DNA of 15,655 bases from Bryobacterales bacterium. GTDB lineage: Bacteria > Acidobacteriota > Terriglobia > Bryobacterales > Bryobacteraceae. The notes below the pieces were generated by a model. It ran no database searches. It worked only from the letters and a program-made list of their open reading frames with translations, and was not told the DNA's origin. The stretch spans positions 1-15,655 of the forward strand of contig PLRZ01000178.1 of NCBI GenBank assembly GCA_003164075.1. The letters are read 5' to 3'. The translations under genes and the position numbers were made by a program. Below, in pieces: positions 1,893 to 15,655 of the stretch (positions are counted from its first letter, which is position 1; the number at the start of each line of letters is the position of its first letter).

Positions 1893-2252
1893 CTAACTCC
1901 GATTCTCAATCACTGTCAGAGACGTCTTTCTTCTCATTTCCGCCAGCGAACTCACCGCCAGCTCGTCGCTGGCAAGGCTGCAATTGGAGTACAGGCTTCC
2001 ATCCCACGGGTCCGTGAACGCAAAGCTTCCCAGGCGCCCCTGGTTGTCCTGGAAGAACTGTTCAAACGCCGCCATCTCGCTCTCGTCCAGTTCGCTCAGT
2101 TGGATTACCCATTGATGCAAGGGGCCGGCCGCATCGCGATACCGTTGCTCGCTGCCGTCCAGGAATCGCACCGTCTGGTTCTGAAACCGCAGCGATTTTG
2201 TCGCGGGGTACTGCGCTATTGCGCCAGTCTTAAGCCGAGGAAAGGTCGCCAT
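1893..2252 (-). CDS. DUF2460-like distal tail protein
   Basis: 119 aa, starting at ATG 2252. It has FPRLKTGAIAQYP at the N-terminus, VRFLDGSEQRYRD, WVIQLSELDESEMAAFEQFF, FAFTDPWDG and an EMRRKTSLTVIENRS end. This is the layout I associate with DUF2460-type phage tail proteins, which occupy the distal tail in lambdoid phages and GTAs. The next gene carries a diverged second copy of the same domain. An in-frame TAA shortly upstream of the ATG limits the start, yet no convincing Shine-Dalgarno precedes it. The preceding 89 nt (2253-2341) are non-coding, which is unusual in this tightly packed operon. Confidence 0.75.
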   Translation of the reverse strand: MATFPRLKTGAIAQYPATKSLRFQNQTVRFLDGSEQRYRDAAGPLHQWVIQLSELDESEMAAFEQFFQDNQGRLGSFAFTDPWDGSLYSNCSLASDELAVSSLAEMRRKTSLTVIENRS

Positions 2253-2341
2253 GTCAGAGGCCGTTTACCACGTCGTTGATCGAGCGTGGACTGAGACTCA
2301 ATCTCCAAGTTCCGGATTTGATCCGATTGCCTTTCAGTCGA

Positions 2342-2707
2342 TCAGCTTCCGGCAGGTCCAGTAGCGTGTCTTGCATTATGTCGGCCATCATTCGTCTCAA
2401 CTGCGAGTTCCTTTCCCAGAATCACGAACGCTTCTACTTGGCGAGCGCTCAGCTCCTCGCCTCCAAACGCGCCCAAGTGCCGCCACACGAAGAACTCCTC
2501 AACCAGCGATTGGCTCTCTGCGGTGATATAAGACGTTGGACACAGTTCGAGGGAGACATTCTTCCACGCCCAGACCAGACGTGCAGGTGTGACGGTGTCC
2601 GTCGGTAGCCATCCGCAACGCCGCTTTTGTTCCAGGCCGGACTTCCGGCAGATGTCGCACTTCCAACCGGCCTGGTTGGAGAAGTGAAAGTGGAAGGCGA
2701 CAATCAG
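2342..2707 (-). CDS. GT extension of the tail assembly chaperone, read by -1 frameshift
   Basis: This open frame lies -1 relative to the G-like gene and continues 121 codons past the G stop, beginning Leu-Ile-Val-Ala at the exit of the slippery heptamer. No ATG, GTG or TTG with a ribosome site opens it near the junction, so it is best read as the C-terminal half of a G-GT fusion of about 242 residues. The extension carries HFHFSNQ, then WKCDICRKSGLEQKRRCGW (a possible CxxC...C metal site), ELCPTSYITAESQSLVEEFF and GGEELSARQVEAFVILGKEL. The CPxSxI...ES...LSA...A...L pattern resembles small tail chaperone proteins of other siphovirus-type prophages. In lambda, gpG and gpGT are both required and their ratio is set by frameshifting; GT helps load tail-tube subunits on the tape measure. 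Confidence 0.72.
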   Translation of the reverse strand: MIVAFHFHFSNQAGWKCDICRKSGLEQKRRCGWLPTDTVTPARLVWAWKNVSLELCPTSYITAESQSLVEEFFVWRHLGAFGGEELSARQVEAFVILGKELAVETNDGRHNARHATGPAGS

Positions 2708-2713
2708 TTTTTT
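2632..2713 (-). promoter_or_regulatory. Programmed -1 frameshift element: slippery heptamer plus H-type pseudoknot
   Basis: Read on the minus strand, A AAA AAC occupies 2713-2707 in the G reading frame, directly before TGA at 2706-2704. After a 4-nt spacer, 2702-2691 (TGTCGCCTTCCA) pairs with 2665-2653 (TGGAAG T GCGACA): 12 base pairs with one bulged base at 2659. The loop contains CCAGGCCGG (2675-2667), perfectly complementary over 9 bases to CCGGCCTGG at 2640-2632 downstream. Connecting loops are about 15, 1 and 12 nt, which fits an H-type pseudoknot. A competing local hairpin (CCGG AAGT CCGG, 2648-2637) could form instead. The pairings are read from the sequence; their activity is inferred. 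Confidence 0.8.
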
Positions 2714-3069
2714 CGTTCGGCCGCGCTCAACCCGGTCTGCGCGCGCACTACCACGACCGCCTCGCGAAACAGTTCCTCCGGCCCAGTCTGTGCCAACGAC
2801 TCCGGTGTGGCCACAGCCCCATCCAGTTCCAGACCCGAGATCGCCCGCAAACCCCACTTCACGTAAAGACGGTCGAGTTCGACCCGCAGCAGCGCGGCAT
2901 CCATCTTCTGTCCGGGGTCCTGGCCTGCTTCCAGAAATTCCATCTTTCGCGCCAGTTCCCGCACTTGCCGCATCAGCTCCGCCCGTCTTCCGAAGGACAT
3001 CTTTGCCACCGTAAACTTCACGCCGCTGGTGACCTGCGACTCCACTACGGCCACACTCTCATAGATCAT
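2704..3069 (-). CDS. Tail assembly chaperone, gpG-like
   Basis: 121 aa from ATG 3069, chosen because GAGGAG lies 9 nt upstream. A longer form from ATG 3096 (130 aa) is possible but lacks a ribosome site. The protein is small and largely helical, with MSFGRRAELMRQVRELARKMEFL, KMDAALLRVELDRLYVKWGL, and an end of GPEELFREAVVVVRAQTGLS followed by AAERKN. Its place directly after the tail tube gene, and the -1 extension at its 3' end, are the defining context of lambda gpG-type chaperones. It ends CGA AAA AAC TGA, which places the heptamer A AAA AAC in frame immediately before the stop. Sequence similarity to lambda gpG is not expected to be strong, so the call rests on synteny and the frameshift architecture. 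Confidence 0.75.
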   Translation of the reverse strand: MIYESVAVVESQVTSGVKFTVAKMSFGRRAELMRQVRELARKMEFLEAGQDPGQKMDAALLRVELDRLYVKWGLRAISGLELDGAVATPESLAQTGPEELFREAVVVVRAQTGLSAAERKN

Positions 3070-3106
3070 CGGAACGCGCTCCTCGCTGACTGCCATGCTG
3101 GTCGTT

Positions 3107-4288
3107 TCAGGCGAACGCCACCGCGATTTCGTCGTCCACCGTTCCCTGCGCCCTGGACGAGCGGAATTTCCACTGCAACCGATTCTTACTGTCGTCGAAT
3201 TCCGGCACCACCGGGATCACGCTTTGCAGGTAAACGCCCACCAACTGTCCTTGCGACTCGCCCATTTGGAACATTACGCTGATCGGTGATTGCTGCCGCG
3301 CCGCCTGGTACAGCGACTGCGTGCTGGCGTCATCCCTGCTGTAGAATTCGAATGCCGCACTCACGGATCGCTCACCCGGAGAAATCGCCATTGGAACGCT
3401 CGACCCGAATTCCTTCGATCGCGTATCCAGTCCGTTCTTGAGCGTCACTGAAGCCGACGTAATAGTGAAGAACTGCGTTGCCGAGGTTCCCAGCCATGCT
3501 TGGCCCAGGTTGCCGGGCACAATCGTATAGTCGAAACCGCTCAACGCCGGCTCCGCTGGAAAGCTCTGAAGCTGTGCCGCGCCTCCAGCGCTGCTGCTAA
3601 AGCTGCTGCTGTCCACCACGTCTTGCGCCTGTCCACTGAATCGGAATTCATGGAAGTCGCCGTTCAAGTCGATCTCCATTTGATCCACGGCCCCTCCGCA
3701 CAGCAATCGCTGCACTGCCGTAGCCGGGCTCCAGTAATCGAAGATCCCCACGCTCGGCAGTTCTGTCGCGGGTGAGTAAGTTAGCGCCGCTCCAACCGGC
3801 GCACCCGCCGCCGGGGGCACCGTGAACGGTACGTTGAGTTGGACCGTGTCGGCGTCTACGATGGCCGCCACGAATCGGATTTCTCCACCGCTACTCACTG
3901 CCTGGCCCGCCGAGAGCCCGTGTGCCGCGGCAAACGCCAGTCTGCCGTTCCCCGTAGTGGACGCCGCCGTCCCCCCGGCGAAATGCGCCGGCGCAGCTCC
4001 CAGCGCTGCCTGGAACAGTGGACCGTAACTAGGGCTGCTGGCCCCCTGCTGCCAGTTCGTCAAAAACGTCCGCAATTCGAAACTGGTTTGCCGCCTGCCT
4101 CCGGCCGGCAGTCCTGTAAATGTCCGGCTTCCCGTCTTGTCCTTCCGATCCGTCACTTCCAGTTGTTGCCGGATTGTCAGCTTCACTGCCGGAATCCGGT
4201 TGGCCGCCGTGATCGAGGCGACCTGCCCATAAGCGCTTTCCAGCGCTGTGTAGAACCGGTTTGCGTTCGAGGAAATATATGAGGCCAT
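3107..4288 (-). CDS. Phage tail tube protein (major tail protein)
   Basis: 393 aa; the ATG follows the stop of the upstream gene by 1 nt. The start (MASYISSNANRFYTALESAYG) and RKDKTGSRTFTGLPAGGRRQTSFELRTFL, followed by a beta-rich body and an end in VVPEFDDSKNRLQWKFRSSRAQGTVDDEIAVAFA, fit long tail-tube proteins of siphovirus-type prophages. Residues about 100-165 (HGLSAGQAV..., IRFVAAIVDADTVQLNVPF) look like an inserted beta domain, and a second half (DQMEIDLNGDFHEFRFSGQA; SASVTLKNGLDTRSKEFGS) resembles another tube-type fold. At 393 residues it is longer than simple tube proteins of roughly 150-250. It is followed by the G/GT chaperones, the standard order. Function is inferred from position and general sequence character. 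Confidence 0.72.
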   Translation of the reverse strand: MASYISSNANRFYTALESAYGQVASITAANRIPAVKLTIRQQLEVTDRKDKTGSRTFTGLPAGGRRQTSFELRTFLTNWQQGASSPSYGPLFQAALGAAPAHFAGGTAASTTGNGRLAFAAAHGLSAGQAVSSGGEIRFVAAIVDADTVQLNVPFTVPPAAGAPVGAALTYSPATELPSVGIFDYWSPATAVQRLLCGGAVDQMEIDLNGDFHEFRFSGQAQDVVDSSSFSSSAGGAAQLQSFPAEPALSGFDYTIVPGNLGQAWLGTSATQFFTITSASVTLKNGLDTRSKEFGSSVPMAISPGERSVSAAFEFYSRDDASTQSLYQAARQQSPISVMFQMGESQGQLVGVYLQSVIPVVPEFDDSKNRLQWKFRSSRAQGTVDDEIAVAFA

Positions 4289-9085: not shown

Positions 9086-10387
9086 CTATATCATTCTCAA
9101 TGACCGCTCCCCAATCGGCGGCAGCCTGCGGCATTCCTGCCAGATCAGGTACCCCAGTGCATCCGATACGTGGGTTCGCAGCCGATCACGGTCCTTGTCG
9201 ATCTGTCCGGTGTCGCCCTTGAAACAAACCTGCTCGAAGTCCTGGATCAGTTCCTTGCATTTCTTGTCCACCAGGAGGCCGATATCGCACCCTGCGGATC
9301 GAAGCTTCGTGTTGGTCAGGTTAATTCGCTCCCGTACACTGGGGTTCGCTTTCGGTACCTTGTAATCCACCTTCATCGACGAGTAGATCGCAAAATGTTC
9401 CTTCACCATTTCGTAATCCGACATCCCCGACGTCTGTTGAGCGCTCCCCGATGCGTCCCCGAATATCGTGACGCCCGGTTCGTGCTTCGGGTACCGTTCC
9501 AGAAATGCCTCGCATGCCTGCCGCGTCGTGCCGTGCCGGATCACAATTTCATCCAGCACCACTATTCGCCCGTTGGCGATCTGTGCGATCACCGAACTCA
9601 TCGGGTCCACGTTGAAATCCAGAGCCCATAAGATCGGCCTGCGCGGGTCGACGCTCAGGTCGGTCACATGAACGCCCTGTTCAAACGAGCTGTACACCCG
9701 GCTGCCGTCCAGGTTGAGATACGACCCCAGTACCTCCTGCGCGTAAAACTTTTCGTCGTAGCTTTCTCTCAGCCGTTTGTAGAAGTCCGGATCTCGTCCC
9801 AGCAGGTGACGGTTCTCGCTGGGTTTGGCATATATCGTGTGATAAGTCTCCGACGGCTTCGCGACGAATTTGCGATAAACCCAGTCGTACCCTTTAGGCG
9901 TCCACGCGGCAAAACCACAAAGCCGCTGCGCCTTCGGATCTCGCAGCCGCCCTTCCAGCCGCAGCCACGCCTCCTCCTGCGTGTAAGTCAGTTCGTCCAG
10001 CCCGAACCACGCCAGGTTCGTGCCGCGCAGCCTCTCGAAATCGTCCACTGGCCGAAACAGGATCCGCGACTTTGTGTCGCTCATTACCAGCGCGTTTTCG
10101 GCCTTGTTATACTCGTACGGAAGTTTGTTGGCTCCCAGAATCTCGAACAGCGTGGCCTGGGTCGCATCCCGCAACATGGGATAAGTCGGAGCGCCAAGCA
10201 GTCCTGTGCGCCCCGGATTTAAGTAAGTCAGGCGAATCGTTTCCTGGCAGAGCGCCTGACTCTTACCGCTGCCAATCGGTCCCGAATACCCTTTGTATCG
10301 TGCCGTGCTATCGTGAAATGCCCTTTGCGAGTCCAGCGGATCGTAGATTATTTCGCGGATTCTAACGTCGCGTTCGGGCCCACCCAT
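9086..10387 (-). CDS. terL: Terminase large subunit
   Basis: 433 aa, ATG at 10387, with AAGGAG 11 nt upstream; it overlaps the preceding gene by 40 nt. The ATPase half shows a Walker A motif in GPIGSGKS (about residues 36-43) and a Walker B LDE in AWFGLDELTYTQEEAW; WTPKGYDWVYRKF fits the coupling region. The nuclease half shows conserved acidic residues: ALDFNVDP, VTIFGDASGS and RTHVSDALGYLIW. This is the ATP-driven DNA packaging motor and headful or site-specific nuclease, which docks on the portal encoded next. All key catalytic motifs appear intact, so packaging function is probably not degraded. Confidence 0.93.
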   Translation of the reverse strand: MGGPERDVRIREIIYDPLDSQRAFHDSTARYKGYSGPIGSGKSQALCQETIRLTYLNPGRTGLLGAPTYPMLRDATQATLFEILGANKLPYEYNKAENALVMSDTKSRILFRPVDDFERLRGTNLAWFGLDELTYTQEEAWLRLEGRLRDPKAQRLCGFAAWTPKGYDWVYRKFVAKPSETYHTIYAKPSENRHLLGRDPDFYKRLRESYDEKFYAQEVLGSYLNLDGSRVYSSFEQGVHVTDLSVDPRRPILWALDFNVDPMSSVIAQIANGRIVVLDEIVIRHGTTRQACEAFLERYPKHEPGVTIFGDASGSAQQTSGMSDYEMVKEHFAIYSSMKVDYKVPKANPSVRERINLTNTKLRSAGCDIGLLVDKKCKELIQDFEQVCFKGDTGQIDKDRDRLRTHVSDALGYLIWQECRRLPPIGERSLRMI

Positions 10388-10623
10388 GTAACTATGATCT
10401 CCTTAGGATCGTCTTCCTGCCCCATCTCCCGCCCGAGTTGCAGCAGTTTGACGTATTCCGCTACCGTTGGCTCGTACTCCGCTTTCGCAATCTTCGTCTC
10501 GAACCGTCCAATCGTCCGCTCCAGCAGTTCGTGAACCCGGACCTTCTCGCTCACCCGTTCCCAATGCTTACATTCCCTGCAGGTCTTGGGAGCCTTCTCA
10601 TTTGACCCACCCTTTTTTGTCAT
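10348..10623 (-). CDS. Small CxxC protein, probable terminase small subunit
   Basis: 91 aa. ATG 10623 is preceded by GAGGAG with a 4-nt gap, which sets the start. The N-terminus is basic (MTKKGGSNEKAPK), then TCRECKHWE gives a CxxC pair, followed by a helical stretch (VHELLERTIGRFETKIAKAE; YVKLLQLGREMGQED). Its 3' end overlaps the large terminase start by 40 nt. It is the first gene of the phage operon and occupies the small-terminase slot, whose members are short helical DNA-binding proteins. The family is not recognised by sequence; the assignment is by synteny. Confidence 0.6.
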   Translation of the reverse strand: MTKKGGSNEKAPKTCRECKHWERVSEKVRVHELLERTIGRFETKIAKAEYEPTVAEYVKLLQLGREMGQEDDPKEIIVTWVGPNATLESAK

Positions 10624-10636
10624 CGTGCTCCTCAAA

Positions 10637-10955: not shown

Positions 10956-11063
10956 ACCCGGTCAGCGGGTGATTGCAACGCCTGTGCCGCCAATTCACAA
11001 ATCTTTCGTCCAATTTTCTATCAACCATTCCGCCCCTTGTGGCGTCTAACCTGCCAGTACACT

Positions 11064-12101
11064 ATGTGGCGATGCTTGTGTCTGCTCACAACCGCGAGTT
11101 TACTGCTGCTCCTCAGCTCCTGCGGCCGTTCCGCTCCGCCGGTTCAGGCCGCTTCTCCCTCGCTTCCGCCGCCCGAACGCCAGCGTGAAGTCCGCGTCAC
11201 TGGAATTGTGCAGGCCGTCCACTCTTCCAAGGTGCTCGTGCCCCAGATTGCCGGCAACTACAGCCGCATGACCCTTACCCATATCATTGCCGGCGGGACT
11301 CAGGTCCAAGCCGGCGACCCCATCGCCAGCTTCGATGCCACCGCCCAAATGGACGCTGCCCGTGACGCGCAAGCCAAATTCGACGATCTCGGCCACCAGG
11401 CCGACCAGAAACGTGCCCAGAATCGCGCCGATCGCGAGAAGCGCGCCACCGACTTACAACAGGCCCAGGCCGACTTGGCCAAGGCCGAGATCGATCTCGG
11501 CAAGGGCCCCGTACTCGGCGAAATCGAAAAGCTTCAGGACGAAGAAAAGGCCCGCATTGCTCGCCTCCACGTGGAAAGCCTCAAAAAGTCCAACGCACTC
11601 CAAGACCAGTCCGATGACGCCAACCTCCGCTATATGGAATTGCAACGCGACCGTCAGAAAGTGGCCATGGAACGCGCCCAGGCCAACATCGATAAGTTGG
11701 AGGTCAAGGCGCCCCTCGCCGGCATGACCGCTCAGGAGAACCTCTCCCGCGGCGGCAATTCCTTCGGACATGCCCAGGAGGGTGACCAGCTCTGGCGCGG
11801 ACAGCCCCTGGTGAGCATCTTCGACCCCACCGAGATGCTGGTCCGTTGCAATATCGGTGAGCCCGACATTGCCGCCGTCGTTCCCGGCGGCAAAGCCAAG
11901 GTCTATCTCGACGCCTATCCCGACCTGGTCTTTCCCGCCCACGTCGAATTCGTCAGCCCCGTGGCCGCCGCCGGCCTCGGCACCCCCATTAAGACCTTCG
12001 TCGCCGTCTTCCGCATCGATAAGACCGACCCCCGCCTGCTTCCCGATCTTTCAGCCGCGATCCTGATGGAGCCCACGTCTGCGGCGGGAGGCGCCAAATG
12101 A
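11064..12101 (+). CDS. HlyD/MacA-like membrane fusion adaptor, predicted lipoprotein
   Basis: 345 aa from ATG 11064. An in-frame TTG at 11037 is possible, but the signal peptide fits the ATG: MWRCLCLLTTASLLLLLSSC, with lipobox LSSC giving a lipidated Cys20. No strong Shine-Dalgarno is seen. The mature protein has a half biotinyl-lipoyl motif (VPQIAGNYSRMTLTHIIAGG...VQAGDPIASFD, about 59-91), a long charged coiled-coil hairpin (about 95-210; QADQKRAQNRADREKRATDL, IEKLQDEEKARIARLHVESL), the second lipoyl half (LEVKAPLAGMT), and a beta-barrel domain. Adaptors of this fold join inner-membrane transporters to outer-membrane channels. First gene of a four-gene operon; its stop overlaps the next start (ATGA). 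Confidence 0.85.
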   Translation: MWRCLCLLTTASLLLLLSSCGRSAPPVQAASPSLPPPERQREVRVTGIVQAVHSSKVLVPQIAGNYSRMTLTHIIAGGTQVQAGDPIASFDATAQMDAARDAQAKFDDLGHQADQKRAQNRADREKRATDLQQAQADLAKAEIDLGKGPVLGEIEKLQDEEKARIARLHVESLKKSNALQDQSDDANLRYMELQRDRQKVAMERAQANIDKLEVKAPLAGMTAQENLSRGGNSFGHAQEGDQLWRGQPLVSIFDPTEMLVRCNIGEPDIAAVVPGGKAKVYLDAYPDLVFPAHVEFVSPVAAAGLGTPIKTFVAVFRIDKTDPRLLPDLSAAILMEPTSAAGGAK

Positions 12102-13354
12102 GTAAGCGCGGACAACGGGTACGTTTCTGGATCGTTCTGCTTCTCGCACTCGTCGTGATCGTTGGCGCAGCCGCCGGTGTCAACCATCTCCGCAAGGTGC
12201 AGGCCAGCGCCACATTCCCTGTCGCCCGCGCCCGCCAGGGGGAATTCCTGGTGATCGTCCGCTGTCGTGGCGAACTGCGGCCGCGCCGCTCCGTCCAGAT
12301 CTACGCCCCCAAGGTGCCCTCGCTGCGCATCGCCTGGCTCGCCCCTTCCGGCCAGAACGTCAACCAGGGCGACACCGTTATCCGCTTCGATTCCAGCTCG
12401 TCCCAGCAGGAGCTGGCAAAAAGGGAAGCCGCCTACCGCCAGGCGCAGGCCGCCTTGGACCAGTGGGTGGCTCAGAGCCAGATCACCGTCGAGCAGGACA
12501 AGAGTGACTTAGCCGACGCCGGCTTCGCCGTCCAGAACGCCCAATTGGAGGCCGACCTGCAAAGTATCAAGAGCAAGATCGAGGGCGCAAAATCCAAAAT
12601 CGACCTCGGTATATCCCAACAAAAGCTGAAAGTGGAAGAGGCCACCGTGGCCCTCCATGCCGCCGCCGACCAGTCCAAACTGGCGTCGCTCACGCGTCTT
12701 CGCGACCAAGCCCAGGCCGACGTGGAACTCCAGAAATCTCGCATCTCCCAGATGGAGGTCAAAGCCCCCATGAGTGGTTTCCTCAGTCTCAGCCTGAACT
12801 ACCAGAACGCCATCACTTCCACCGACGCGGTCCCCTACAAAGTCGGCGATAGCGTCTATTCCGGCATGAATCTCGGGGACATTCCCGACCTCGACAGCCT
12901 GGAACTGGCCGGCCGCATCGAAGAGACCGAACGCGGACGCATCTCCGCATCGCAAGACGTGGTAGTCCGCGTCGACGCCCTGCCGGAACTGTCGTTCAAG
13001 GCCAATGTCAGCCAAATCTCCCCGCTGGCCGAAACCAGTCTGAACGAGTTTCCCCCCGTCCGCAGTTTCCTGGCCTTGGCCAGCATTCAACATCCCGACC
13101 CGCGCCTGCGCCCCGGTATGAACGGCGGCATGGATATCGTGGTCAATCGCGTTCCGCACGCCATCAGCATCCCTACCAAGTCCCTGTTCACCCGTGGCGG
13201 CAAGCCCATCGTCTACCTGGCCAACGGCGACCGTTACCGCGCCGTCGAGGTGAAGGTAGAGGCCCGCAATCCCGACGAGGTAGCCGTCTCCGGCATCCCC
13301 CCTAATGCAACCGTTGCCCTGGTCGACGTGGAAAAGAAGGAGCCCAGGAAATGA
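12098..13354 (+). CDS. HlyD-family membrane fusion protein
   Basis: 418 aa, starting inside an ATGA overlap with the previous stop. One N-terminal membrane segment (FWIVLLLALVVIVGAAAGV, about residues 10-28) anchors it in the inner membrane. It then shows the lipoyl half (VQIYAPKVPSLRIAWLAPSG, QNVNQGDTVIRFD), a coiled-coil hairpin (about 100-225; QQELAKREAAYRQAQAALDQ, QQKLKVEEATVALHAAADQS), the second lipoyl half (MEVKAPMSGFLSL), a beta-barrel (LAGRIEETERGRISASQDVV) and a membrane-proximal domain (SIPTKSLFTRGGKPIVYLAN). This is a full-length periplasmic adaptor for an ABC exporter. It is distinct in sequence from the adaptors on both sides, so it is not a recent duplicate. Confidence 0.88.
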   Translation: MSKRGQRVRFWIVLLLALVVIVGAAAGVNHLRKVQASATFPVARARQGEFLVIVRCRGELRPRRSVQIYAPKVPSLRIAWLAPSGQNVNQGDTVIRFDSSSSQQELAKREAAYRQAQAALDQWVAQSQITVEQDKSDLADAGFAVQNAQLEADLQSIKSKIEGAKSKIDLGISQQKLKVEEATVALHAAADQSKLASLTRLRDQAQADVELQKSRISQMEVKAPMSGFLSLSLNYQNAITSTDAVPYKVGDSVYSGMNLGDIPDLDSLELAGRIEETERGRISASQDVVVRVDALPELSFKANVSQISPLAETSLNEFPPVRSFLALASIQHPDPRLRPGMNGGMDIVVNRVPHAISIPTKSLFTRGGKPIVYLANGDRYRAVEVKVEARNPDEVAVSGIPPNATVALVDVEKKEPRK

Positions 13355-14634
13355 GAACCCGCATTCTGGGAATCGCCATCTCTCTGGGAATCCTAGCGGC
13401 CCTCACATGGGGAGCCCTGCGCCTGGTCCGGACCATGGCCGCTCCTTCCACCTCCGAGCTGCCTACCACCCGCGTTCGGCGCGGCGCCGTCGTCGTGGCC
13501 GTATCGGCCCGCGGCCAGTTGCAGGGCGGCAACTCCGAGACCATCGAAGTGCCCATGACCGGGGTCGACTCTACCGGAATCAGCTACCTGCGCGAACCCG
13601 GCGAGTTGGTCAAGGAAGGCGATATCGTCGCCCAGTTCGATATCACCCAGCAGGAATTCAATCTCCGCGAGGCCCAGGCCGATCTCGCCGAAGCCGAGCA
13701 GCAGGTCATTCAGGCGAAAGCCACCAGCGATGCCACCGACGAAGAGAATCGCTACGCCCTCCTCTCCGCCCAATCCGACGTCACCCTCGCCGAACTGGCC
13801 ATTCGCAGCAACCCCGTGTCGGCCACCATGAAGGCCCGCCAGAACGATATCGCCCTGGAAGCGGCGCGCGGACGTCTCCGCCAGGCCCAACACAACATGG
13901 CCAACAAGAACGCCAACTCGGTGGCCACCGTGGCCATTCAGGAAGCCAACCTCAACAAGGCCAAGGTGCAGGCCGAAATGGCCGCGAAAATCATCGAGAG
14001 CATGACCATCAAGGCCAAAACTAACGGCTATGTCAGTATCGAACCCAATACCAACGTCAACATCTGGTATACCGGCATGACTTTCCAGCCCCTGCAAATC
14101 GGCGACACGGTCTACTCCGGCCAAGCCGTGGCGCGCATCCCCGATTTCAAGAACTGGGAGGTCAGTGCCCGTGTGGGCGAGCTTGACCGGGGCCACCTCG
14201 CCGTCGGCCAGAAGGTCACCGTCTCCGTCGTCGCTCTTCCCGGCAAGTCTTTCACCGGAAACGTGAAGGTGCTCGGCGGCACTTCCGGCCCCCCCTGGGA
14301 CCGCCGCTTCGATTGCCGCATTGGGCTCGACGCACCAGTCCCCGAAATGCGCCCCGGCATGACCTCCAACCTGACTATCACCGCCGAAGTGCTGGACAAT
14401 GTCATCTGGATCCCCTCCCAGGCCCTCTATGAGAGCGACGGCAAGAGCTTCGCCTATCTGCGCACTCCGCAAGGCTTCATGCCTCACGATGTGACCCTCG
14501 TGAACCGTAGCGAAAGTCAGGCCGTCATCAAAGGTCTCAACGAAGGCGATGTGGTCGCCATGTCCAACCCCGAGCAGCGTAATAAGCCCGCTTCCGGCCC
14601 CGATACCGGCGCCATGAAGGCCCTGCAGAAATGA
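13351..14634 (+). CDS. HlyD-family membrane fusion protein
   Basis: 427 aa, again starting in an ATGA overlap. The N-terminal segment ILGIAISLGILAALTWGALRLV is a single membrane anchor. A lipoyl half (STGISYLREPGELVKEGDIV...FDITQ), a coiled-coil hairpin (about 105-215; REAQADLAEAEQQVIQAKAT, GRLRQAQHNMANKNAN), the second lipoyl half (SMTIKAKTNGYVSI), the barrel (WEVSARVGELDRGHLAVGQK) and a membrane-proximal domain (VIWIPSQALYESDGKSFAYL) are all present. It shows MacA-like features in the last domain and is translated next to the permease, so it is the best candidate for the permease's direct partner. Substrate is not evident from the sequence. Confidence 0.88.
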   Translation: MRTRILGIAISLGILAALTWGALRLVRTMAAPSTSELPTTRVRRGAVVVAVSARGQLQGGNSETIEVPMTGVDSTGISYLREPGELVKEGDIVAQFDITQQEFNLREAQADLAEAEQQVIQAKATSDATDEENRYALLSAQSDVTLAELAIRSNPVSATMKARQNDIALEAARGRLRQAQHNMANKNANSVATVAIQEANLNKAKVQAEMAAKIIESMTIKAKTNGYVSIEPNTNVNIWYTGMTFQPLQIGDTVYSGQAVARIPDFKNWEVSARVGELDRGHLAVGQKVTVSVVALPGKSFTGNVKVLGGTSGPPWDRRFDCRIGLDAPVPEMRPGMTSNLTITAEVLDNVIWIPSQALYESDGKSFAYLRTPQGFMPHDVTLVNRSESQAVIKGLNEGDVVAMSNPEQRNKPASGPDTGAMKALQK

Positions 14635-15655
14635 TCTTCTCCTTCAGCGACATCACCCAGGCGCTGGCCAACCTGCGCGCCCAGAAAACCCGCACCCTGC
14701 TCACCGCCCTGGGCATTGTTTTCGGCGTGGGCTCGGTCATCGGCATGCTCTCCATCGGCGCCGGCGCCAGGGAGGAATCGCTCCGTTTCATCGAACAACT
14801 GGGAGTCCGCAACGTTCTCGTCGATACCCGGCCCACCAGCAGCCGCGAAGAATTCCAGCAGCGCCGCCGCTCTTCCCCCGGCCTCTCCCAGCGCGATGCC
14901 CGCATTCTGCGCGCCAATATCGATTCCCTCGAACTGCTTTCGGGCCGCCGCACCATGCACCCCGCGCGCGTCCTCCCCAAGCCCTCGCACGACCTCCCCG
15001 AGCTTTACGGCGTAAACCCCTCCTACAGCGCCATCCACAGTCTCCGCCTGGCCGAAGGCGCATTCTTCACCCAGGGCGACGACGACGCCAGCGCCAACGT
15101 CTGTGTCCTCGGCGAAGGCGCCAAAGTCAGCCTGCTCGGCTACGACACCGCCATCGGCAAGTCCGTCAAAGTGAACGATACCTGGCTGCAAGTCGTCGGT
15201 GTCCTCAACGAACAGCTCATGGCCGGTTCCACCAATTCCGGCGGTGCCATGCAGGACGTGAATAACATTGTCTACATCCCCCTGAATACCTTCGAGTACC
15301 GTTTCTGGGATACCAGCGCTTCCATGAAGGACGATCTTGACGGCATCGAGATTCGTCTTCGACAGGATGCCGATAGCATTGAAGTCGCCAAGGTGGTTAC
15401 CGCGGTCCTCAATTCCACCCACCACAACGTCCAGGATTTCTCCGTTACCATTCCCGCCGCTCTTCTGGCCCAGCAGCAGCGCACTCAGACCATCTTCACT
15501 TACGTGATGGTAGCCATCGCCGCCATTTCCCTCTTAGTGGGCGGCATCGGCATCATGAATATCGTGCTCGCTACGGTAATGGAGCGCACCCGCGAAATCG
15601 GCATCCGCCGTTCCATTGGCGCCCGCCGTTTCGACATCGTGCGCCAGTTCCTCAC
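14631..15655 (+). CDS. MacB-like ABC transporter permease (FtsX fold), 3' end beyond the window
   Basis: Open from ATG 14631 (ATGA overlap) to the right edge, about 341 codons without a stop. The N-terminus is MIFSFSDITQALANLRAQK, then the first membrane helix TLLTALGIVFGVGSVIGMLS. A large periplasmic MacB-type core follows (about 50-280; VLGEGAKVSLLGYDTAIGKS, WLQVVGVLNEQL). The second helix TIFTYVMVAIAAISLLVGGI and the signature GGIGIMNIVLATVMERTREI, followed by GIRRSIGARRFDIVRQFL, are clear. No nucleotide-binding domain precedes it, so the ATPase must be a separate gene, presumably downstream. Such permeases use a mechanotransmission cycle to drive lipid or peptide export through the adaptor. 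Confidence 0.9.
   Translation, partial: MIFSFSDITQALANLRAQKTRTLLTALGIVFGVGSVIGMLSIGAGAREESLRFIEQLGVRNVLVDTRPTSSREEFQQRRRSSPGLSQRDARILRANIDSLELLSGRRTMHPARVLPKPSHDLPELYGVNPSYSAIHSLRLAEGAFFTQGDDDASANVCVLGEGAKVSLLGYDTAIGKSVKVNDTWLQVVGVLNEQLMAGSTNSGGAMQDVNNIVYIPLNTFEYRFWDTSASMKDDLDGIEIRLRQDADSIEVAKVVTAVLNSTHHNVQDFSVTIPAALLAQQQRTQTIFTYVMVAIAAISLLVGGIGIMNIVLATVMERTREIGIRRSIGARRFDIVRQFL

Follow-up and report, generated by a model that had tools for sequence, protein, structure and literature searches.

The head-tail cluster and the junction between G and T

The window analysed here, that is, the whole stretch of 15,655 nucleotides, comprises positions 1-15,655 of contig PLRZ01000178.1 from a Bryobacterales bacterium (assembly GCA_003164075.1), and its minus strand carries a phage-derived head-tail cluster. 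On this strand the terminase (10387-9086) and the portal (9134-7713) are followed by a coat protein of the P22 type, recognised by a profile match (7074-6163), and by a tail protein that holds the position of the major tail protein (3107..4288; phrog_290 minor tail protein, 1.4e-12). Downstream of it lie G, an ORF of 130 amino acids resembling a tail assembly chaperone (2704..3096, 0 frame), and the T part in the -1 frame (2342..2707), then a 45-codon ORF (2254..2391), a DUF2460 protein (1893..2252; PF09343, 1.1e-10), a second DUF2460-like protein below the Pfam cut-off (1890-1108) and a further ORF reaching the window edge. The short G frame is placed behind the tail tube gene and ahead of the tape-measure-like and distal tail genes, as in G/GT systems. 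Gene order and strand were identical in all 46 genome loci holding the 11 scored genes, out of 67 loci examined, and from the match to the terminase up to the final tail gene the cluster spanned 14.4-16.8 kb in 33 genome loci.

Several other features were observed along the locus. The two tandem DUF2460-like proteins (1893-2252 and 1108-1890) share about 30% identity across their first 82 residues. Directly before the terminase, a minus-strand ORF of 95 amino acids with a CxxC motif (10348-10635) could encode a small terminase, and the plus-strand ORFs at 11037-15655, which by eye resemble efflux membrane fusion proteins and an ABC permease, are probably host genes. In a related locus, L162, the last gene of the cluster (16056-18809, 918 amino acids) matches PF23845, the TIM barrel of a non-contractile tail sheath protein (1.7e-16).

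The junction itself, on the minus strand, reads CGA AAA AAC TGA at the end of the G frame. The slippery heptamer A AAA AAC (2713-2707) and the 0-frame stop TGA directly 3' of it (2706-2704) lie exactly where the original prediction had placed them, and the -1 frame remains open for 121 codons up to a stop codon at 2344-2342, also as predicted. Beyond the heptamer, a spacer (2702..2706) leads to the 5' arm of stem 1 (2691..2701), which pairs with 2665-2654; the 3' arm (2654..2665) contains a bulged U2659. Loop 1 takes up 15 nt (2676..2690) and is followed by the 5' arm of stem 2 (2667..2675), inside the loop of stem 1, and by a single nucleotide (2666) that separates this arm from the 3' arm of stem 1. 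A loop 3 of 13 nt, which would cross stem 1 (2641..2653), leads to the 3' arm of stem 2 (2632..2640), and the perfect complementarity claimed for the loop was found over nine bases, 2675-2667 with 2640-2632. The stem had been predicted as 12 bp with a single bulge, starting four bases after the heptamer; such a stem can form in the window, but only 116 of 197 distinct junctions have a standard pair at its first position, U2702-A2653, so that the conserved stem 1 has 11 bp and the spacer 5 nt rather than 4 nt. This spacer lies within the range of about 5-9 nt expected for an H-type stimulator, the range on which many frameshifting studies have focused (PMC5009743, in the text available).

Taken by itself, the window does not set this arrangement apart from its background. 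By shuffling, AAAAAAC is expected 1.45 times in the window, so the heptamer alone is not beyond chance; hairpin-only folding of the 121-nt region in the window gave an average stability (z 0.01), and an Rfam scan of 2500-2850 matched no family. The more-than-chance status of the cassette consequently derives from conservation among homologues, which constitute an independent test, since the pseudoknot had been proposed from the window alone.

Conservation of the heptamer and of the two stems

Protein-similarity scans yielded 448 loci, those from virus collections being the best 80 per scan, a selection by protein similarity in which close relatives are over-represented. The usable loci amounted to 439, after leaving out six without a T match, two at an edge and one containing N, and they were reduced to 304 distinct junctions because several loci fell on the same contig; the first 197 of these form an earlier subset used for some of the counts. 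A AAA AAC/U was present in 302 of the 304 junctions (AAAAAAC in 297, AAAAAAT in 5). The 0-frame stop was adjacent to the heptamer in 269 junctions, one codon further on in 33 and absent nearby in two. The sole junctions lacking the heptamer, L320 (GAGAAAC) and L415 (AACAAAC), still have the 0-frame stop directly behind. A far group of homologues was drawn from whole genomes, with T matches from E 5e-32 to 4.5e-10, omitting L464, which is truncated, and L482-L483, which are without a T start. Its junctions were located by searching for AAAAAA[CT] no more than 40 nt from where the site was expected; the heptamer occurred in 24 of the 24 loci holding the T start (AAAAAAC 19, AAAAAAT 5), followed immediately by the stop in 22 and after one intervening codon in two. 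Heptamer, spacer and pairings, whose lack of conservation would have spoken against the original prediction, are kept in homologues.

Codon choice at the end of G is equally constrained. The Lys before the last G codon is AAA in 302/302 cases, and the Arg preceding it ends in A in all 273 (CGA 177, AGA 96). A conserved A6 run extended in this manner could also serve RNA polymerase, whose slippage on the run would yield transcripts in the -1 frame. Nevertheless, the base after the run is C or T in 302/304 junctions, polymerase slippage usually requires a run longer than A6, and such a model gives no role to a conserved downstream fold lying at ribosomal spacer distance, all of which makes transcriptional slippage very improbable.

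Support for the two stems was sought by covariation in 300 sequences, after dropping the four of the 304 rows with a one-codon insertion. Three proposed pairs, 2696-2660 in stem 1 and 2672-2635 and 2667-2640 in stem 2, ranked 1, 2 and 6 among 2628 column pairs (1, 2 and 3 in the first 197 sequences), and their scores were reached in 1, 0 and 0 of 200 simulations under a tree-based null for each pair. However, the pooled tree-based null, which is heavy-tailed, assigned the three pairs E values of 1.7, 3.3 and 7.1, and the pairs ranked 3 to 5, none of them part of the proposed structure, performed about as well against their own nulls (0, 1 and 2 of 200), so that the ranking alone is not conclusive. 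Most of the remaining proposed pairs barely vary, or vary on one side.

The nature of the exchanges is more informative. With G at 2660, position 2696 is C in 210 of 251 sequences; in the 49 sequences where 2660 is not G, 2696 is C in two, a purine in 44 and T in three. A purine at 2696 is able to pair with U2659, and the bulge would thereby change sides. Pair 2672-2635 appears among the 300 sequences as G-C in 207, A-U in 48, A-C in 31 and G-U in 11, the G-C and A-U forms corresponding to the synonymous combinations CAG..CTG and CAA..TTG. In the far loci the outermost conserved pair of stem 1 is standard in 16/24 (G-C 10, C-G 3, A-U 2, G-U 1) and broken in eight, and the next pair is standard in 20/24 (U-A 12, C-G 8) and broken in four; among the near loci the outermost pair is broken in 49/304. 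Overall, stem 1 retains a mean of 10.64 of its 11 pairs in 302 near sequences and 10.42 in 24 far ones. The compensatory changes that had been proposed as a check are thus seen as covariation in both stems, with exchanges in stem 1 added by the far group.

Stem 2 deserves separate consideration, as the hairpin of stem 1 might stimulate frameshifting on its own, with stem 2 arising as a by-product of conserved protein sequence. The arms of stem 2 do encode conserved residues, and the far loci keep stem 1 better than stem 2: the best duplex between loop and downstream segment had a mean energy of -19.2 in the 24 far loci, versus -14.6 after shuffling, and beat 95% of shuffles in 10, while in the 302 near loci the corresponding values were -19.0 versus -11.8, with 216 beating 95% of shuffles. 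Against a by-product stand the covariation of stem 2 at ranks 2 and 6, located partly at synonymous sites, and the pairing of its 3' arm, which averages 8.177 of 9 pairs and was never equalled in 500 permutations (maximum 7.877), a comparison that ignores kinship. Moreover, in 24 loci with Pro at T12 stem 2 is shifted by one base in 12 (run of at least five pairs), and L480 and L481 hold a long stem 2 built from other sequences. Stem 2 is nonetheless weak in part, since only 15 of the 24 Pro loci show a run in either register. We regard stimulation by the hairpin alone as unlikely, though less so than the slippage of RNA polymerase, and favour an H-type pseudoknot formed by two crossing stems, which the covariation backs even though the pooled null is weak.

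Several codons in the stems of the predicted pseudoknot point in the same direction: Val T3 is GTC in 295/296, Cys T17 is TGC in 300/300 and Ala T13 is GCC in 273/287. Against this, the synonymous choice at stem codons T6 and T14 is not frozen, and that at Cys T20, which lies in loop 3, is (TGC in 294/300). Across 28 conserved G codons, taken as background, observed codon entropy was 0.96 of that expected.

Expression of T and identity of the two parts

The -1 frame behaves as a coding sequence. Against the window, dN/dS in 17 chosen loci ranged over 0.14-0.27 for T and 0.08-0.20 for G, and T is, by these ratios, under purifying selection, in keeping with the protein-like content originally ascribed to it. 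The slippery site closing G consequently opens into a selected -1 frame, as at G/GT sites.

The frame might equally be translated independently, by initiation of its own or by termination-reinitiation at the G stop, the heptamer being incidental. In 131 of 197 distinct loci the T frame does contain an ATG, GTG or TTG downstream of the last stop preceding T (39 with ATG), and in the window it stays open as far back as a GTG at 2857. Yet 66 of the 197 loci, a third, have none of these codons between the last upstream stop and T (rarer starts such as CTG and ATT lie outside the count), upstream stops come as near as 12 nt, T codon 1 or 2 is one of the three in only 7/304 junctions, and the heptamer is retained where T has diverged to about E 1e-10. 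A start codon proper to the -1 frame, which would have undermined the original prediction, is hence not conserved, and we give independent translation of T very little credence. Independent starts, reinitiation, transcriptional slippage and stimulation by the hairpin alone all rank below pseudoknot-stimulated frameshifting.

With heptamer and stems conserved and a conserved T start lacking, the comparative data agree with the original interpretation, and the junction is very probably a programmed -1 frameshift cassette in a chaperone gene of the G/GT type, with an H-type pseudoknot and a selected T domain. Most ribosomes would stop after A AAA AAC and release G; the IBV-like pseudoknot 5 nt downstream would hold back a minority of them, which would slip by one base and continue into T, producing GT, a fusion that carries the conserved and selected T domain. 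We infer the slippage and its rate, as well as a joint action of G and GT as chaperones of the tail, as in lambda.

The identity of G was approached through families and structure models. At E ≤ 0.01 we collected 853 homologues of G and 288 of T; Pfam and PHROG scans found no family matching either, and G members scanned against both collections at E up to 1 gave weak unrelated matches only. The AlphaFold model of G (pLDDT 82) had one match in BFVD at E ≤ 0.001, an unnamed phage protein (E 1.4e-8); among the 50 BFVD matches listed, 13 bear the name of a tail assembly or tape measure chaperone (E 0.02-0.68), and in the PDB the HK97 chaperone 2ob9 appeared at E 3.2 only. The resemblance of this model, together with the position of G after the tail gene, favours a G/GT-type tail assembly chaperone, short of proof. 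The case for the frameshift does not rest on this likeness, nor on the integrase results given below. As for T, four cysteines are invariant in 22/22 aligned members and possibly constitute a putative metal site; since the model of T is poor (pLDDT 59.7), no metal site is claimed from structure. A tblastn search with T against 50,697 phage records gave no match at E 0.01. The names of its homologues suggest that the T half, not sharing the frame of G, is often annotated as a hypothetical protein in its own right.

The region behind T is where a tape measure gene would be expected. T and the first DUF2460 gene lie 401-800 nt apart in 311 of 397 loci, and in 172 distinct loci, chosen by an end motif and a gap >150 nt, the interval holds a tape-measure-like open frame with a median of 225 codons, stop to stop. 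In L162, this gene shows a weak match at its end to the tape measure profile phrog_3779 (E 0.0028, 30 residues). The gap is ≤150 nt in 26/272 distinct loci, through some seven changes on the tree, and the 45-codon ORF of the window (2391-2254) looks by eye like both ends of the tape-measure-like gene of its relatives. In the window, then, the frameshift site is intact and the tape-measure-like gene is not.

Inheritance of the cluster and relation to known systems

Of 257 genomes from the order to which G002 belongs, the Bryobacterales genome that contains L162, 197 have T, and except in three of them it gave a single match; the weakest two matches, in G133 and G186, show no T start in the stretch examined. 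Among 297 genomes drawn from the phylum it was found in two, both within the order set, and as the best 15 candidates per genome were scored, divergent copies of T could be missed there. To compare the cluster with its hosts, RecA was dropped as marker because of its two copies in many genomes, and an rpoB domain was used instead; it was found in 38/46 genomes, of which 35 with a full-length domain were taken and 34 used, G141 having no tail gene in the stretch taken. The duplicated full-length RecA matches sometimes lie side by side on one contig (e.g. G214, G213, G123 and G217).

In these 34 genomes, the tail gene and rpoB correlated with a Spearman coefficient of 0.46, a value that none of 999 permutations reached (highest 0.44); the two shared 11 of 31 splits, where shuffling predicts 0.2, and 7 of 11 strong splits, and the nearest neighbour was identical in 14/34 genomes. 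This partial tracking makes the cluster look largely, not strictly, vertically inherited, maintained and domesticated in a manner reminiscent of gene transfer agents (GTAs), for which a single-copy, vertically inherited head-tail cluster is expected. In 8/8 genomes no integrase matched within 50 kb on the same contig, some contigs ending sooner, and the nearest match was 50.4 kb away (G102). The neighbourhood is partly shared, with a mannosyltransferase like that of L162 upstream in 12/43 loci and a comparable O-antigen ligase downstream in 10/38.

The cluster of about 16 kb (L160-L226; genomes G002-G258) is a GTA candidate, and the cassette would now serve a largely vertical, GTA-like head-tail cluster instead of a conventional infectious phage. 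We also put forward, as a tentative idea more likely to prove wrong than right, that it is a working GTA common to the order Bryobacterales with a very short tail, in which a strong pseudoknot would raise the GT:G ratio above that of long-tailed phages, few G copies being needed for a tape measure of some 200 residues, and in which some lineages without a tape measure keep the frameshift. If this is true, loss of the tape measure with retention of the frameshift, as in the window, would imply either a tail built without a tape measure or a second role for G/GT.

We found no work joining Bryobacterales with gene transfer agents, and in the available text of PMC5900883, retrieved for Solibacter, the phrase is used in a general sense. 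Clusters of this kind have been reported as Bryobacterales proviruses, group (i), in 2025 (PMC11924767). The element listed there as IMGVR_UViG_639633060_000001 (Ca. Solibacter usitatus) is the same as our locus L150; the terms 'frameshift', 'tail assembly' and 'gene transfer agent' are absent from the main text of that paper.

Comparison among homologues argues strongly that an H-type pseudoknot is conserved at this phage-type G/GT site, whose heptamer is weak in E. coli; no earlier instance of such a conserved pseudoknot was recognised in the literature available to us. The cassette seems to have persisted while a bacterial order radiated, which turns the relation between stimulator and tape measure length, and the existence of a Bryobacterales GTA, into testable questions.

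Among known systems, the cluster resembles GTAs of the RcGTA type in being a head-tail cluster with largely vertical inheritance, no integrase matched nearby in the eight genomes checked and a DUF2460 protein; the match to a P22-type coat protein counts as a difference. With lambda G/GT it shares a chaperone-like ORF with a putative -1 shift near its 3' end followed by a T domain. The heptamer of lambda is G GGA AAG, unlike the A AAA AAC of the window, and the short tape-measure-like gene (median 225 codons) is a further difference. In lambda and other tailed phages, a low-level -1 shift near the 3' end of the chaperone ORF fuses the T domain to it (PMC5009743). The GeneTack survey includes an HK97-like tail chaperone cluster with measured frameshifting of 6-7% and has A_AAA_AAC among its A-rich consensus heptamers; in its available text we saw no mention of Solibacter, nor of a pseudoknot at a site of this type (PMC3711429). 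The Listeria phage PSA also combines a phage structural gene with a stimulatory pseudoknot, but its shift is +1, on a proline codon of the capsid gene, and not of the G/GT kind (PMC5009743). An anatomical parallel is offered by pseudoknots of the coronavirus IBV type at X XXY YYZ sites: although the present site is bacterial, belongs to a structural gene and has a bulged stem 1 and a loop 1 of 15 nt, so that the resemblance is one of anatomy only, it shares with them an H-type fold, a 5-nt spacer and a stem 1 of 11 bp, the length below which stem 1 of IBV is not functionally reducible (PMC5009743).
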